A DNA stretch of 64,000 bases, taken from positions 1 to 64,000 of the forward strand of contig CAJBNH010000048.1 of the NCBI GenBank assembly GCA_903955385.1, in the 5' to 3' direction. This document shows, piece by piece, positions 51,773 through 60,572 of this stretch; positions within the stretch are counted from its first letter, which is position 1, and each line of letters starts with the position of its first letter. Origin of the DNA: an uncultured Myxococcales bacterium (GTDB taxonomy: Bacteria; Myxococcota_A; UBA9042). The notes under the pieces were generated by a model. The model was not told the DNA's origin, made no database searches, and was given only the letters and a program-made list of their open reading frames with translations. A program made the translations under genes and the position numbers.

Positions 51773-52345
51773 CTAGCGGGCATCCGTCTCGGACCCCGCG
51801 GCGTGCTCAGTCCCCAGACCCACTCCGGTCAGCTGGCAGTCGGCGGCCAAGTCACCGGCGATCAGCGCAGGGGCCAGATCGCGACGCGAGCGGGACAGCG
51901 GACGCGGGTTGGCGGCCGTGCGCTGGCTGGCCACCATGTTCTTGGGCGTCACGAACATGTCCATCGTCAGGCCCTCGAACTGGCGCATCACAAACGCATT
52001 CAGCACGGCCATTGGCGCCCGCAGACCACAGGCAGGGGTGCGCTCGCAGCTGTGGCCGCTGACCTGACAGTGCACGACGCCCAGCTGGTCCTCGAAGGGG
52101 CGCAGCACGTCCAGGAAGTGGATGTCCTCGATGGGGCGCGCGAGCCGGTAGCCACCGCCGACGCCCTTGGAGGCCAGAAGGATGCCGGCGCGCTTGAGCG
52201 TTTGCAGCACCTTGGCCAGCACATCTTGGGGGATGTTCTCGGCGGCCGAGACTTCTGCAACCGAGACCAACGATTCGCGCGGCTGTCGACTCATGTGCTG
52301 CAGGGCAATGAGTGCGTATTCGGACTTGCGGCTGACCTTGAACAT
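51773..52345 (-). CDS. Rrf2/IscR-family iron-sulfur regulator
   Basis: 190 residues. The winged helix-turn-helix N-terminus is 'MFKVSRKSEYALIALQHMS', with recognition region 'DVLAKVLQTLKRAGIL'. The cluster cysteines are Cys93, Cys100 and Cys106, close to IscR (C92, C98, C104), so it should sense Fe-S status, NO or redox. The tail (125-190) is longer and Arg/Ala-rich. GAGGGA lies just before the ATG; the longer upstream frame includes the promoter. It is divergent from a small Cys protein whose promoter has an IscR-like palindrome. No isc genes are adjacent. Confidence 0.88.
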   Translation of the reverse strand: MFKVSRKSEYALIALQHMSRQPRESLVSVAEVSAAENIPQDVLAKVLQTLKRAGILLASKGVGGGYRLARPIEDIHFLDVLRPFEDQLGVVHCQVSGHSCERTPACGLRAPMAVLNAFVMRQFEGLTMDMFVTPKNMVASQRTAANPRPLSRSRRDLAPALIAGDLAADCQLTGVGLGTEHAAGSETDAR

Positions 52346-52372
52346 GGTCCCTCGGGGGGTAGAGAGGCAGCA

Positions 52373-52401
52373 ACGGTAGAACCTTGGCGGCGGGGACGCA
52401 A
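52373..52401 (-). promoter_or_regulatory. Promoter of the Rrf2 gene
   Basis: TTGCGT (52401-52396), 17-base spacer, TACCGT (52378-52373), about 21 bases of leader. Confidence 0.45.
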
Positions 52402-52516
52402 GAACCGGACCGCAAGAGCCTGAAATTGTCTGCGCCAAGGGAGGCCGACCGGCGTGTTGGTGAGGGTTTGGCAGCTGTGACGCGATGTTGAGTTGGGGGC
52501 GCGAATCCTCTCGTCG

Positions 52517-52531
52517 ATTCGAGCATCGAAT
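52517..52531. promoter_or_regulatory. Perfect palindrome ATTCGA-N3-TCGAAT
   Basis: ATTCGA-GCA-TCGAAT, a perfect 6-bp inverted repeat with 3-base centre, 24 bases upstream of the -35 of the five-Cys promoter. Possible operator. Confidence 0.4.
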
Positions 52532-52554
52532 GGAGAAGAGCATTGGGGCGTGGC

Positions 52555-54603: not shown

Positions 54604-54879
54604 TCAACCGACCTTGTTCGCCTTGCGATTCCACCACAGCAGGCCCAGCGCCAGCACGGTCAGCACGCCAGCCGTCGGCAGCGCCCGGTCCAGGCCGCCC
54701 AGCTGGTACTGGTCGCGCCACTCTTCGCGGGTGGTCTTCTCTCCGGTGACGGGGTCCTCGAATGCGACCTGCACGGCCACCTTGTGTTGGGTGTAGGGGT
54801 GCGCGCCGGTGGCGAGCCAATAGCCGACGATGCCCAGCGCCGCGATCAGGAACAGTGCAGCGAACACCTTGCGTACCAT
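54604..54879 (-). CDS. Small two-helix membrane protein
   Basis: 91 residues. Helix 1 is about 5-24 ('VFAALFLIAALGIVGYWL'), then a hydrophilic loop with 'FEDPVTGEKTTREEWRDQYQ' (split: FEDPVTGEKT and EEWRDQYQ), helix 2 about 68-84, then a basic tail. AGAGG precedes the ATG. No family recognised. It lies 50 bases after YceI in the operon that begins with the Rieske gene, so it may be the inner-membrane component of that system. Confidence 0.65.
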   Translation of the reverse strand: MVRKVFAALFLIAALGIVGYWLATGAHPYTQHKVAVQVAFEDPVTGEKTTREEWRDQYQLGGLDRALPTAGVLTVLALGLLWWNRKANKVG

Positions 54880-54929
54880 GGGAAACCTCTTGTGAGCCGT
54901 GGGGCAGTCTGCGCAGCAGTCGCTGGCGA

Positions 54930-55559
54930 CTAGCGGGCGAGGCCGTAGAACACCGCTTCGAGTTCGACCGACTCGCCGACCTGCTTGCCGATGATGCCGC
55001 GCTTGCCCTTGATGTTGAAGTCCTTCAGCAAGATCGAGAACTTGGCGGTGATCTTGATCGCCTGGTTCTTGGGGTTGAAGACGATGTTGACCGGGATGGC
55101 CAAGCGCTTGGATACACCGTTCAGGCTGAAGGTGCCGGCGGTGGTGGCCTTGGCAGTGGATCCCTCGGTCGTGACGCCGTCCAACTTCTCAATCTCAAAC
55201 GAGATCAGCGGGAATCCGTCGCCGTTCAGCCACTCCGGCCCACGCATGTGGACGTCGCGGGTGTCGTTGCCGGTCGTCATCGAGGCGATGGGCACCGTGA
55301 TCTTGCCGATGGTGCCGGCCAAGTTGGCGCCGTCGGCCAAGCGCAGGCTGCCCTTGATGTGGCTGGCAGTGCCGCGGGTCTGTTCCATCGGCGCCGTGCA
55401 CAGGAAGGTGATCTGGCTGGCAGCGGGGGCGTCGCCGATCTCGATCGAAATCGGTCCCGCGCGGCCGAACAGGCCTTGGGCGGCGGCGGGCAGGGCGGTG
55501 ACAGCCATGGCGAGGGTGCCGGCGGCGGCGAGGACCAGGAATCGGGCGGCGCGGGTCAT
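54930..55559 (-). CDS. YceI-family periplasmic lipid-binding protein
   Basis: 209 residues with signal peptide (1-27). Family motifs are 'TRGTASHIKGSLRLADGANL', 'DTRDVHMRGPEWLN' and a C-terminal 'GKQVGESVELEAVFYG'. YceI proteins form a lipocalin-like barrel that binds polyisoprenoids such as quinones. AGGAG precedes the ATG. In the middle of a Rieske/monoheme operon, a quinone-type lipid as electron carrier is a plausible ligand (inference). Confidence 0.85.
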   Translation of the reverse strand: MTRAARFLVLAAAGTLAMAVTALPAAAQGLFGRAGPISIEIGDAPAASQITFLCTAPMEQTRGTASHIKGSLRLADGANLAGTIGKITVPIASMTTGNDTRDVHMRGPEWLNGDGFPLISFEIEKLDGVTTEGSTAKATTAGTFSLNGVSKRLAIPVNIVFNPKNQAIKITAKFSILLKDFNIKGKRGIIGKQVGESVELEAVFYGLAR

Positions 55560-55578
55560 GAAGGGCTCCTGTGTGAGG

Positions 55579-56733
55579 CTAGAAGAAGAGGTGCAGCTGC
55601 AGCGTGTACTGCCCCAGCGTGTAGTCGTCGGTGACGAGGTAGCGGTACTCCGGACGCAGCTCGACGAACGGCAGCGGCTCAAACTGAAGGCCCGCCACCA
55701 GGGCGCGGGTCTCGGCCGTTTGACTGCCCAGCTCTGAGGTCGCGCGCTCGGCCCGTGCCTCGACCGTCAGCCAGTCCTTCACCGGCACCGTTGCGTGCAG
55801 CATCATGTTCAGCGTCGAGTGCTTGGCGGAACGCTTGGCGTGCGAGGCCTCGAACAGCAGCGTTCCCCAGTAGTTCTTGCCGACGCCCACATAGCCCGAC
55901 GTGAACTGCAGATCGCCTGCGCGCAAGTAGGACGCGCCGGCCATTCCGTTCAGACCGGCTTCGAGCCATTGCGGGAAGAGTGCGAGGCGGCCTGAAGCTC
56001 CGGGTTCGTCTTTCGCGACGGTCGGTACCGCCTCAGTCAGGTTGCGCGCCAACAGTGCCCCGACCTGGACCAGCAACCAGTGCGACGGGGCCCAGCCGAC
56101 CTCGGCACCCGGGTCGGCATAGTCAGGTGGGATCATGGGTTGGCGAGGACTGGCGGCGTCAGAGCGCAGCAGCATCGTGTGGTCGTCGTGCCGGATGCCC
56201 ACCGACGGCTGCATCATGCCGGCGCGGACGTACGGGGCGTTTGGCGACGGTTGCCACCGCGCCCACGCTTGCCACGGCGACTGGCCGGGATAGCTCTTGA
56301 CGAAGGCAGAGGCGTTCATGCTTCCGGTGACCGTCACCGTGTCGGTCGGCATGACCGCGATCTCGGGCGTCAGCTGCATCGGAATCACTTGTCGATCTGG
56401 GAGCTTCACCTTGCCGTCGGTTCCCCGAGTCGGCCGTCCCAGACGCGCCATCTGGCCGCGGTAGTCCAGACCCAGCGAGACCTTGCCGTCCAGCAGCGTG
56501 TTGTCCTCCAGGTTGTGGAGCGAATCCCAGCCGATCTGCTTCCACGTCCACGCGCCGGTCTGGTTCATCGCGTACCAACCGAGGTCGGTTCGCAGTCCAG
56601 AACCTTGCGGATCGACATGGCAATTGGCACACGGCGCGCCGGTGGTCAGCGTCATCCGCGGTAGGGCGTGTCCGGGAACCGTCAAGACCACAGGGGCCAA
56701 CAAAGCGACGACGGCAAAGGTCAGGCGGCTCAC
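55579..56733 (-). CDS. Monoheme c-type cytochrome fused to an outer-membrane barrel
   Basis: 384 residues. Signal peptide (1-23), then a single heme-c site 'CANCH' (C35, C38, H39) within 'TTGAPCANCHVDPQGSGLRTD', a pattern found before porin domains in some metal-reducing Deltaproteobacteria. From about residue 75 to the terminal Phe ('YTLQLHLFF') it is an all-beta porin-like barrel. The start is GTG at 56733, overlapping the Rieske stop by 4 bases (GTGA), so translation is coupled. It would bring a heme to the periplasmic mouth of a barrel. Confidence 0.82.
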   Translation of the reverse strand: MSRLTFAVVALLAPVVLTVPGHALPRMTLTTGAPCANCHVDPQGSGLRTDLGWYAMNQTGAWTWKQIGWDSLHNLEDNTLLDGKVSLGLDYRGQMARLGRPTRGTDGKVKLPDRQVIPMQLTPEIAVMPTDTVTVTGSMNASAFVKSYPGQSPWQAWARWQPSPNAPYVRAGMMQPSVGIRHDDHTMLLRSDAASPRQPMIPPDYADPGAEVGWAPSHWLLVQVGALLARNLTEAVPTVAKDEPGASGRLALFPQWLEAGLNGMAGASYLRAGDLQFTSGYVGVGKNYWGTLLFEASHAKRSAKHSTLNMMLHATVPVKDWLTVEARAERATSELGSQTAETRALVAGLQFEPLPFVELRPEYRYLVTDDYTLGQYTLQLHLFF

Positions 56734-57206
56734 AGCGTCACCAGCCCGATGCCGTTGGTCACGACGACCGGGTAGGACGTCAGGGCCTCAGTCGCCGGTC
56801 CAGCCAGCACGTGGCCATCCTTGGCGAACACCGAGTCGTGGCAGACACAAGTCAGCGTTTCTGCTGCCTTATCCCAGTGGCCCGCCATGTCGGGGCCCAT
56901 GTCGCAGAACACGTGGGTGCACAGGCGGTCCAGCGCGACGTACTCGGCGTTGGACACTCGAATGATCAGGATCTTGTGGCCCAAGGCTTCGGCCGACTGC
57001 ATGCCGCCCACCAGCGCAAGGTTTGCGAAGGTCGGGTTGGCCAAGTCGAACTGGAACTCCCCGGATGTGCCCTCTCGCAGCTGTGCCACCTCGCAACCGG
57101 GCAGGGCGGTCAGCGCGGCGCTGGCCACGCCGACAGCACCCAGCGAACAGAGGAATTCACGACGGGTGGCGGCCCTGACAGCCGTCGGGGAGGAACTCGA
57201 GTTCAT
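56730..57206 (-). CDS. Tat-exported Rieske [2Fe-2S] protein
   Basis: 158 residues. A twin-Arg signal 'TRREFLCSLG' (residues 14-23) is followed by lipobox LPGC (Cys38), so it is folded before export and probably lipid-anchored. Rieske ligands are C96 and H98 ('CTH') and C120 and H123 ('CVCH'), and C101/C122 fit the stabilising disulfide. Rieske folds carry electrons at relatively high potential. It lacks a bc1 partner here; its neighbour is a monoheme barrel protein, with which it is translationally coupled. First gene of a probable five-gene operon. Confidence 0.9.
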   Translation of the reverse strand: MNSSSSPTAVRAATRREFLCSLGAVGVASAALTALPGCEVAQLREGTSGEFQFDLANPTFANLALVGGMQSAEALGHKILIIRVSNAEYVALDRLCTHVFCDMGPDMAGHWDKAAETLTCVCHDSVFAKDGHVLAGPATEALTSYPVVVTNGIGLVTL

Positions 57207-57317: not shown

Positions 57318-60300
57318 CTAGGGCTGCAGCTGTTCGCGTCCCGTCGCCCCTTCCACCACCCGCTTCACGCCAAATCGGAAGGGAAAGGCCTGGTTGCCCA
57401 GCCACATCGCTGCCTGGTCCGCAAAGTGGGGCGAGGTGGTCATGGACGACTGTCCACCTGGCAGGATGTTCCAGCCGGTCGTGTCCTGGCCGTTCGGTGC
57501 GATGACCATGCGGAACACAGGGCCACTGCCATAGCCAAAGCCCTGCGTCTGGATACCGCCCGCCGCGTCGACCACAAAGGCGTCACCGTTGCGGGGAAAG
57601 CGCGGCAGGCCGATGCGCGGGTCACCCTTGGGCAGCTTGGGGGCCAGCGGCACCACCTCTGGTGTGATGGCAAACGTCTCGGTCAGAAAGGCGTATTCAG
57701 GCTTGTCGCCCAGAAAGTCGGCGAGGATCGAGTTGAACCGCACGCCGTGGCGCAGCCCCCACAGCCACGTGCTCATGTCCGGCGTGCCGAAACCGCCGTC
57801 GCCGGGACCCGTGGGCGGGGCACGCAGGAACGTCACGGCCTGGACCAGTGCCTTCAACGCCACCTCGCGACTGCGCTCCACCTGCGGCGTCTGCAGCACG
57901 TCGAAGAACGCGGACTCTTCGGTGTCTGGATTCCACGCCGCCAGTTGTTCCGGATTGCCGGGGCCGCGGCCCTTGCGCATCGAGGTCAGCGCTCGGGTCC
58001 GCGCGTCGTTGCCCCAAGGCTCCCAGATGCCGGGCAGCCCCTCGTCGTCGAACACGCCGCCCACGAACGCCCCGAACCACGCGTTGAAGATCATCGTCGC
58101 GACGGCGTGTTGCGCGTCCTGAGCGGCAGGCGTGTGGTAGAAGGTCTCGACCCCGGACTGGGCGGGCGTTCCCGCGTCGACCCACGCCTGCAGCCGCTGC
58201 TCGATGGCGTCGAACGTGGACGCTCCCGTCGTCTCTGTGACTTGCTGGTACAGGGCGACCAACCGCTGCTCGTCCGGGGTGACTTGCGCCTGCAGCGATG
58301 CCTTGTGCGCGGCCTGAATTGCGTCAATCAGGAACGGCGCCCACTCCTCCCCCAAGCGCGACCGGTGGTTGGCCTGAATGGCGGACATGCGGTCGGGGTC
58401 GGCCTGACCGGCCGCGATGGCCTTTTGCAGCTCCTGCGAGATCGTCAGTGCCCGCAAGCCGTTGGCCCATGGACCGCCGATGTACCACTTGTCGTTGGTC
58501 AGCGAGTTGTCGCTGGCCAGGTTGCCCGGGTCATTGTTCGCGGTCACGACATAGCCTTGCGGCGGGTCGATCGACTGCGGGTACTCGGCGAACGGCACCA
58601 CGCACTTGTACGGGTCCAGCGCTCCCGGCGCCTCGTCGACCTTGCCATCGGCGCCGACCGGAATCGTGAACCCTGCGTATTTCTTGCCGTCCAGCAGCTG
58701 CTTGGGGTCCGCGCCCGGCAGCCATACGCCGTCCTTGTCCCGCGGCAGATAGCCCCGGCAGGGCACCGCTTGATAGCCTGTGTACAGAACGTGGCCTTGG
58801 CTGTCGGCGACCATCAGGTTCTGCGAATAGGCCACCAGGCCCTTGGTCGCCTCTCGGTACTCGAACACGTCTTTGGAGTGGCCGAACCGGTCGACCGCCC
58901 CCAGCACGTCGGCGCCGTCAAAGCCCGCGAAGTCGCCGCTGATGGCCGTAACGACACCGTCGTTGTTCAAGTCTCCGGGCACGACCAGACCGCCCTGCAC
59001 GCTGACCAGTGACTCGCCCGGCGCCAACTTCTCGTCCGCCGTTGCGGTGCGTCCTTCGATCTCTGCGATCAGCCGCCCGTCCCAAGTCTCCCACCGCGCC
59101 CAGGTCTCGGTGCGCCCGGTGCTCTTCAACAGGGGCACGTCCGCCACCACAAAGACTTCGTCGATCTTCTTCAAGGGCTTGGTCTCACTGCCGAAACGCG
59201 TGGCCTGCGGCTGTCCGCTGGCGTCGAGCACCAGCTCCTCGCGGTACCAGTCCGAGATGTCACCGCCCAGCTGCGTCTGGCTCCACGCCACCTGACCGTT
59301 GGTGCCGACGGCAAGAATCGGCAAACCGGGGATGACGAGGCCCAGCTGGTGCGTGTCCCCGCCGCCGAACACCTGGGTGTCCAAGCCGATCTGGTAGAAC
59401 AGCGACGGCACCGTCAGCGGCAGGTGGCCGTCGCCCGCCAGCATGGCTCGCCCCCCGACCGCCGCCTTGCCTGCGACCGCCCAAGCGTTCGAGCCCCATC
59501 CCGCCAAGTGGTCGCGGCCGGCACGATTTTGCCAAGCATCTGCGCGGTGTTGGAGGCGCTGCAAGACGCTTGTCGGAACCCCCAGCGCCGGATCGCCCAC
59601 GCCAGCCTGCGCCCGGGTCCTGCCTGCCTGACGCCCCTGTCCCGGTCCTCGCTGTGGCGGTGGCGGCGGCGGCACCATCTTGCCGTCCTGGTCCAGGCCG
59701 AGCCCAAGTGCCGAGCTGACCATGCCGACCGGTCGCACGTTCTTCCAAATGTCCTTGACGGCACCGGACTTGCGCAGGTCGGCCAGTGCCTTGCCGTCGA
59801 ACAGGTTCGGCAACGCGGCTGCGGCCAGGGTGCGTCCGATGTCGTCGGTCTCGTAACCCAGATTGTAGACCACGGCGGCGGTGATCCCGGCGACGCTGCG
59901 GCGGTCGAACGGCACCATCAGCTTCTGCGCCGTCGTGCCCAACAACCCCTTGGCCAGCAGAATCTCTGTGGGTTCCGGCAACTTGCCTGCGACCACCAGC
60001 GCGATGTAGTCGTTTACACCGGCCGCGAACGCATCGAATGTCTCGACTTGGTCCGGGGTCAGGCGGGCCAGCACCCGCTCAGCGTAGGCACGGCTGCCGT
60101 TGCCTCGCGAGCCCTGGTCGGTGGACAGCGCGGCGGCCCCCAGCAGCTCTGAGAGCACACCCAGACCCACCCGACGCTCAAGGTCCAGCTGAAAGTACCG
60201 GTCGCGCGCCACCACGAAGCCTTGTGCGTGCGCCAGATCCTTGCGGTTCGCTGCGTAGATGTGCGGGACGCTGCCTTCGGTGCGGACGACCTGCACTGGG

Positions 60301-60515
60301 GCGGACAAGCCGGGCAGGGTGTAGGTGGCCGTCAGGGGGACGCTTTCGATCAGCGCCTGTGCGGACGGGTCACCGGGCAGCGGCACGTCGGCAGCGTCGG
60401 CGGCATCCACCACATCCGTCGCGGTCGAAGCGTCCGACGAGGCATCGTCAGACCCGCAACCACTCGACATCCATAGGAAAGCAATCACAGGAAACCACGC
60501 CGCTGCGCTCTTCAT
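57318..60515 (-). CDS. Penicillin-acylase-family (Ntn hydrolase) lipoprotein
   Basis: 1065 residues. Lipobox SSGC (Cys20), then an Asp/Ala linker. The alpha domain runs to about 280. A Pro/Gln/Arg/Gly linker with PPPPPP (282-287) precedes the beta chain, whose N-terminal nucleophile is Ser342 in 'GWGSNAW', the site of self-cleavage. Length exceeds typical penicillin G acylase (about 840) and includes extra loops. It would hydrolyse amide bonds of acylated compounds such as acyl-homoserine lactones, beta-lactams or lipopeptides; the natural substrate is unknown. The ATG at 60515 follows GGACGGAAC. Confidence 0.87.
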   Translation of the reverse strand: MKSAAAWFPVIAFLWMSSGCGSDDASSDASTATDVVDAADAADVPLPGDPSAQALIESVPLTATYTLPGLSAPVQVVRTEGSVPHIYAANRKDLAHAQGFVVARDRYFQLDLERRVGLGVLSELLGAAALSTDQGSRGNGSRAYAERVLARLTPDQVETFDAFAAGVNDYIALVVAGKLPEPTEILLAKGLLGTTAQKLMVPFDRRSVAGITAAVVYNLGYETDDIGRTLAAAALPNLFDGKALADLRKSGAVKDIWKNVRPVGMVSSALGLGLDQDGKMVPPPPPPQRGPGQGRQAGRTRAQAGVGDPALGVPTSVLQRLQHRADAWQNRAGRDHLAGWGSNAWAVAGKAAVGGRAMLAGDGHLPLTVPSLFYQIGLDTQVFGGGDTHQLGLVIPGLPILAVGTNGQVAWSQTQLGGDISDWYREELVLDASGQPQATRFGSETKPLKKIDEVFVVADVPLLKSTGRTETWARWETWDGRLIAEIEGRTATADEKLAPGESLVSVQGGLVVPGDLNNDGVVTAISGDFAGFDGADVLGAVDRFGHSKDVFEYREATKGLVAYSQNLMVADSQGHVLYTGYQAVPCRGYLPRDKDGVWLPGADPKQLLDGKKYAGFTIPVGADGKVDEAPGALDPYKCVVPFAEYPQSIDPPQGYVVTANNDPGNLASDNSLTNDKWYIGGPWANGLRALTISQELQKAIAAGQADPDRMSAIQANHRSRLGEEWAPFLIDAIQAAHKASLQAQVTPDEQRLVALYQQVTETTGASTFDAIEQRLQAWVDAGTPAQSGVETFYHTPAAQDAQHAVATMIFNAWFGAFVGGVFDDEGLPGIWEPWGNDARTRALTSMRKGRGPGNPEQLAAWNPDTEESAFFDVLQTPQVERSREVALKALVQAVTFLRAPPTGPGDGGFGTPDMSTWLWGLRHGVRFNSILADFLGDKPEYAFLTETFAITPEVVPLAPKLPKGDPRIGLPRFPRNGDAFVVDAAGGIQTQGFGYGSGPVFRMVIAPNGQDTTGWNILPGGQSSMTTSPHFADQAAMWLGNQAFPFRFGVKRVVEGATGREQLQP

Positions 60516-60543
60516 CGTTCCGTCCCCCCCCAAGAGACGGGCG

Positions 60544-60572
60544 AGTCTAGAGGTGAAGAGGGGGCGGGGCAA
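60544..60572 (-). promoter_or_regulatory. Promoter of the acylase gene
   Basis: TTGCCC (60572-60567), 17-base spacer, TAGACT (60549-60544). Its -10 is identical to that of the hyf promoter. Confidence 0.4.

Follow-up and report, generated by a model that had tools for sequence, protein, structure and literature searches.

What could a Rieske protein, a porin with a single heme site, a YceI-family protein and a small membrane protein that belongs to no named family do together, encoded side by side at positions 54604-57206 (coordinates re-checked) of the 64-kb window, the whole stretch of DNA analysed here? We argue that the four genes, all on the minus strand like every other window feature located below, probably specify an electron-transfer device, so far unrecognised, with kinship to the iron oxidase Cyc2. 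The first gene encodes a predicted Tat-exported, lipid-anchored Rieske [2Fe-2S] protein of 158 aa (56730..57206; Pfam Rieske, E=2e-13), and it shares a GTGA start/stop overlap (56730..56733) with the gene for a 384-aa monoheme cytochrome-porin of Cyc2-like architecture (55579..56733), here called the heme-porin, which has one CxxCH and a barrel in its AlphaFold model. After 19 bases follows a YceI-family periplasmic lipid-binding protein of 209 aa (54930..55559; Pfam YceI, E=5e-23), and after another 50 bases a membrane protein of 91 aa with two hydrophobic helices (54604..54879; alignment A3). The preliminary description of this locus had named the same four proteins and the same overlap, and both are confirmed in the DNA and its translations. 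Two flanking genes were left out of the operon: a FadL gene downstream, which is absent from the families conserved across loci, and a penicillin amidase family gene directly upstream (57318-60572), common to only five of 42 loci. An Rrf2-family regulator with three cysteines (CQVSGHSCERTPAC), possibly an Fe-S or NO sensor, is encoded at 51773-52543. No Rfam family was found in the window.

The first point to settle is whether these genes belong together at all, as that description had proposed in calling them one functional module. The heme-porin has a match in 20 of the 21 same-family assemblies besides its own, one of these 20 (G002) giving a weak match only. The gene order of this locus, from Rieske through heme-porin and YceI to the two-helix gene, persists within the family at identities of about 20-50%, and the start/stop overlap often persists with it. 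Beyond the family, detection depends on the query: the single heme-porin sequence matched none of 31 genomes that represent other families within the class or phylum and nothing in a scan of genome contigs, where an alignment was needed; the alignment recovered the protein in other families of the same phylum and in Ignavibacteria/Kapaibacteria. A plasmid collection gave no heme-porin match, and a plasmid-borne origin was set aside. One of the records, L047, is a MAG contig titled Klebsiella pneumoniae that bears a Myxococcota-type operon; its name is probably wrong.

With R for Rieske, M for heme-porin, Y for YceI and s for the two-helix gene, four orders of the complete set are seen among 41 distinct loci of Myxococcota and of Ignavibacteria/Kapaibacteria: R-M-Y-s (19 loci), M-s-Y-R (4), Y-s-R-M (4) and Y-R-M-s (1). 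No other gene family around the heme-porin is comparably conserved, the next genuine one being the Rrf2 regulator, near the operon in six loci. Genes that were neighbours by chance, or loosely grouped in a cell-envelope operon with no shared function, would fit the nine of 41 loci where the heme-porin stands without the other members close by; in five of these nine the sequence extends for 2.5 kb or more on both sides. However, all seven incomplete-locus genomes that were checked contain both a Rieske and the two-helix protein, three of them holding a complete M-s-Y-R locus in addition, and in every inspected region of these genomes where the two-helix gene was found it adjoins YceI. This genome-wide co-occurrence, together with four complete orders in two phyla, makes the chance reading very improbable, and the synteny in several orders and phyla largely excludes it. 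Synteny in relatives, on which the preliminary description had staked its proposal beforehand, is thus strong, and the recurrence of the set in two phyla and several orders shows that it is more than a product of chance.

If the genes form a module, its character depends first on the heme-porin. Exactly one CxxCH stands behind the signal peptide and, as previously claimed, ahead of the barrel: the predicted heme c attachment site CANCH (residues 35-39, 56617..56631), whose C35, C38 and H39 are invariant in 36 aligned and diverse homologues; with one such site, a multiheme porin complex was excluded. Pfam gives only a weak BBP2 barrel match and no relative was found in the PDB by sequence. The AlphaFold model built with the 36-sequence alignment (pLDDT 89, pTM 0.83) has 16 strands over residues 85-383; the N-terminal segment that surrounds the CxxCH is folded, where an earlier model, before the alignment was deepened, had left it unresolved. 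The Foldseek matches listed are all porins, with OprP/OprO reaching the top query-normalised TM-score (0.58). Also invariant among the 36 homologues are M119, H381 and a DDHT tetrad (residues 183-186, 56176..56187), which the model places within a long loop, 175-206, as a candidate metal or heme-ligand site.

These residues lend themselves to a reading in which the heme-porin serves as a pore for ligand binding or catalysis (a peroxidase, for example, or a route by which NO or metals are taken up), its heme simply kept reduced by the Rieske, with no net long-range electron flow. A ligand or metal site could be built from DDHT, His381 and Met119; one heme is too few to bridge the membrane; and six loci have an Rrf2-type regulator nearby. 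We nevertheless regard this reading as improbable, as both the Rieske-cytochrome c fusions described below and the presence of a YceI arm point beyond a housekeeping reductase.

A different precedent is Cyc2, a fused cytochrome-porin that acts as an Fe(II) oxidase and has been modelled on OprP/OprO templates (PMC8406198). Cyc2 and the heme-porin both have a signal peptide, a single N-terminal CxxCH in a secreted porin, a predicted 16-strand barrel and similar length (384 aa, against at least 365 for Cyc2), and they share the same register from A-x-P to CxxCH as well as a remote profile similarity. Cyc2 is further marked by AXPXFAR[Q/K][T/Y] upstream of CXXCH and by PXL four residues after it (PMC8406198); both are absent from the heme-porin, which has ALPRMTLTT in place of the former and CANCHVDPQGSG at the position of the latter, and membership in Cyc2 proper is excluded on this ground. 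The heme-porin has its own CHVxPQGxGxR and the invariant DDHT loop, and unlike Cyc2 it is genetically linked to a Rieske, a YceI and a two-helix protein; in the paper on Cyc2 neither a Rieske nor a YceI comes up (PMC8406198).

Profile comparisons bear on how deep the resemblance goes. Against eight motif-bearing proteins of the same phylum, taken by pattern search (L136-L143), the heme-porin family matched at 96% over 345 columns with signal peptides included; for the mature parts the match was 75% over the whole, 85% for the heme segment and 80% for the barrel, while reversed-sequence controls gave 0.2-0.8%. An intermediate set of one-heme porins, drawn from weak matches of the heme-porin profile and so not an independent sample, matched the heme-porin family at 99.9% and Cyc2 at 96.8%. 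These profiles lend support, by way of the intermediate family, to a probable remote homology of heme-porin and Cyc2, and we read the whole as one superfamily with at least three branches, in which the heme-porin branch would be separate from Cyc2. The intermediate porins (L112-L124, L127) have the pattern [A/E]PRFAxREG..C..CHVNxTGGGMRT and are often encoded beside a two-heme cytochrome c. Four of the eight Cyc2-motif proteins of Myxococcota come from genomes of the window's own family.

The Rieske protein is the proposed partner. Its export signal, TRREFL, contains the twin-arginine motif RREF (residues 15-18, 57153..57164) and is followed by the lipobox LPGC (35-38, 57093..57104) and Glu39, which bears out the Tat-exported, lipid-anchored protein proposed earlier. 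The cluster-binding CxH and CxxH lie in box I, CTHVFC (96-101, 56904..56921), and box II, CVCHDS (120-125, 56832..56849); the Pfam Rieske match is above cut-off and the best PDB matches are b6f Rieske domains. Throughout an alignment of 15 Rieskes (A2), the twin arginines (R15, R16) with F18, the lipobox C38 and the four [2Fe-2S] ligands C96, H98, C120 and H123 are all invariant and E39 is conserved in at least 90%; the Tat motif occurs in 31 of 31 Rieskes. In heme-porin and Rieske alike, it is the functional residues that selection has kept. By contrast with the bc-type proteins, the disulfide cysteine pair is complete in only 13 of these 31, the second cysteine of box I not being conserved, and the potential of this Rieske may therefore be lower than that of bc1. 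According to the Lol rule of E. coli, unproven for Myxococcota, an Asp after the lipobox cysteine retains a lipoprotein in the inner membrane; with Glu in this position no such retention is expected, and the same sorting rule would put the Rieske into the outer membrane, next to the heme-porin. In two relatives, both Myxococcota with the heme-porin elsewhere, the Rieske carries a C-terminal class I cytochrome c (L164:2516-3433 and L166:2767-3702, both minus strand), genetic evidence that the operon-type Rieske works with heme c. Tandem double-Rieske versions occur in L034, L037, L038 and L100.

The wider genome places the set outside bc1 and the oxygenases. The operon copy is the sole Rieske of its genome and no cytochrome b (PF00033) was matched there, in an assembly that is 95.6% complete; no bc1 or oxygenase genes adjoin the set, and a part in either was excluded, as the preliminary description had maintained. 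Among the same-family genomes, about half possess a cytochrome b. A cbb3-type oxidase whose CcoN and CcoO share a single 797-aa reading frame (L111:7657-10050, minus strand) is present, and c-type cytochromes are presumably matured.

The remaining two proteins suggest a lipid or quinone function. The YceI protein has a signal peptide, as read from its sequence, and its profile matches solved YceI or polyisoprenoid-binding proteins in the PDB; one further YceI is encoded in the same genome. Some members of this family bind ubiquinone-8, and a YceI with a cytochrome b561 (BcnA-LcoA) detoxifies lipid peroxyl radicals (PMC9113575), so that at the level of the family the operon YceI may be a quinone carrier. 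The two-helix protein, which has no Pfam or NCBIfam family, conserves D42, G46, G61 and D64 between its helices (alignment A3), and its gene usually adjoins YceI across loci.

Taken together, these observations point to a Cyc2-like outer-membrane redox relay as the explanation that we hold to be fairly likely: its periplasmic partner would be the lipid-anchored Rieske, and YceI would join the two-helix protein in a lipid or quinone arm. The 16-strand barrel would admit a small solute from outside, and the single covalent heme at its periplasmic mouth would exchange electrons with that solute within the barrel. The Rieske, exported folded with its cluster by Tat and lipid-anchored beside the barrel, would exchange electrons with the porin heme and connect it to a cytochrome c/cbb3 chain, while YceI and its two-helix partner could shuttle an isoprenoid quinone, towards the inner membrane or away from it. 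This relay is favoured by the complete set in four gene orders across Myxococcota and Ignavibacteria/Kapaibacteria and by the partners found in seven of seven incomplete-locus genomes; by the invariant cofactor residues, the barrel nearest OprP/OprO and the profile link to Cyc2; and by the Rieske-cytochrome c fusions, the sole Rieske without cytochrome b and the cbb3-type oxidase. Against it stand the missing Cyc2 signature motifs, the division of the set between contigs in some genomes and the heme-porins without an adjoining Rieske in others, and the YceI proteins known from quite different contexts. The source organisms are, moreover, mostly lake and sediment MAGs without a known iron-oxidising lifestyle, the absences in the window's own genome are those of a 95.6% complete assembly, and we infer heme and cluster occupancy, localisation, docking, substrate and the YceI ligand from sequence and model.

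The direction of flow in such a relay is a separate question. The relation to Cyc2 suggests inward flow, our tentative first guess, though somewhat less likely than not. The usual direction from Rieske to heme c, and the part that YceI plays in binding quinone and as an antioxidant (PMC9113575), suggest outward flow from quinol, which we rate as almost equally probable. A fuller outward version, on balance rather unlikely, is a bc-like branch in which quinol borne by YceI is oxidised by the Rieske, whose electrons pass through the barrel heme to an acceptor in the pore, be it a metal, a peroxide or a lipid radical, for electron disposal or protection of outer-membrane lipids. The known periplasmic Rieskes of bc1, b6f and arsenite oxidase do reduce c-type hemes. 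The ubiquinone-8 binding and radical detoxification reported for YceI proteins (PMC9113575), the usual pairing of the two-helix gene with YceI, the cytochrome c fusions and the genome without cytochrome b are in keeping with this version. Yet the functionally known relatives of the heme-porin, Cyc2, work inward; the disulfide (both cysteines in 13 of 31) and other high-potential Rieske features are not conserved; and the cytochrome b in about half of the family argues against a simple replacement of bc1. Its most specific form, a bc1-like high-potential branch at the outer membrane leading from YceI quinol through the lipid-anchored Rieske to a Cyc2-type porin heme without cytochrome b, seems unlikely; if true, it would link an extracellular acceptor with the quinone pool, bypassing that protein.

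Whichever way electrons move through the proposed relay, the module may be of use to research on Cyc2, in which single-heme cytochrome-porins are treated mainly as iron oxidases and the periplasmic proteins that take their electrons are poorly known. It offers a genetically linked, testable set of partners, the lipid-anchored Rieske and the YceI pair, for a branch that neighbours Cyc2 and is widespread in uncultured Myxococcota and Ignavibacteria, and it gives a functional context to the nameless two-helix protein and to some YceI proteins. The preliminary description stands in its proposal of a module and in knowing of no described system of this kind, which agrees with the open-access literature searched; it overlooked the Cyc2 architecture and the probable remote relation, as well as the Glu behind the Rieske lipobox. 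The heme-porin architecture is known in kind, and it is the branch and its partner set that were not found described in that literature.

Several known systems resemble parts of this module. MtrAB, MtoAB and PioAB are alike, by analogy, in their role in outer-membrane electron transfer; the heme-porin differs in having one heme, 16 rather than 26 strands and no decaheme partner in the operon. BcnA-LcoA likewise links a YceI to a membrane protein gene in an envelope redox context (PMC9113575), whereas here the partner is the two-helix protein, which has no named family, accompanied by a Rieske and a heme-porin, and no member of the cytochrome b561 family was found among the operon proteins and neighbours scanned. 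The Rieskes of bc1/b6f and of arsenite oxidase (AioB), finally, share the cluster ligands and Tat export with the operon protein, which differs from them in its lipobox anchor and non-conserved disulfide, in a genome without cytochrome b and an operon without a Mo subunit, and in the tandem double or cytochrome c-fused forms that it sometimes takes.
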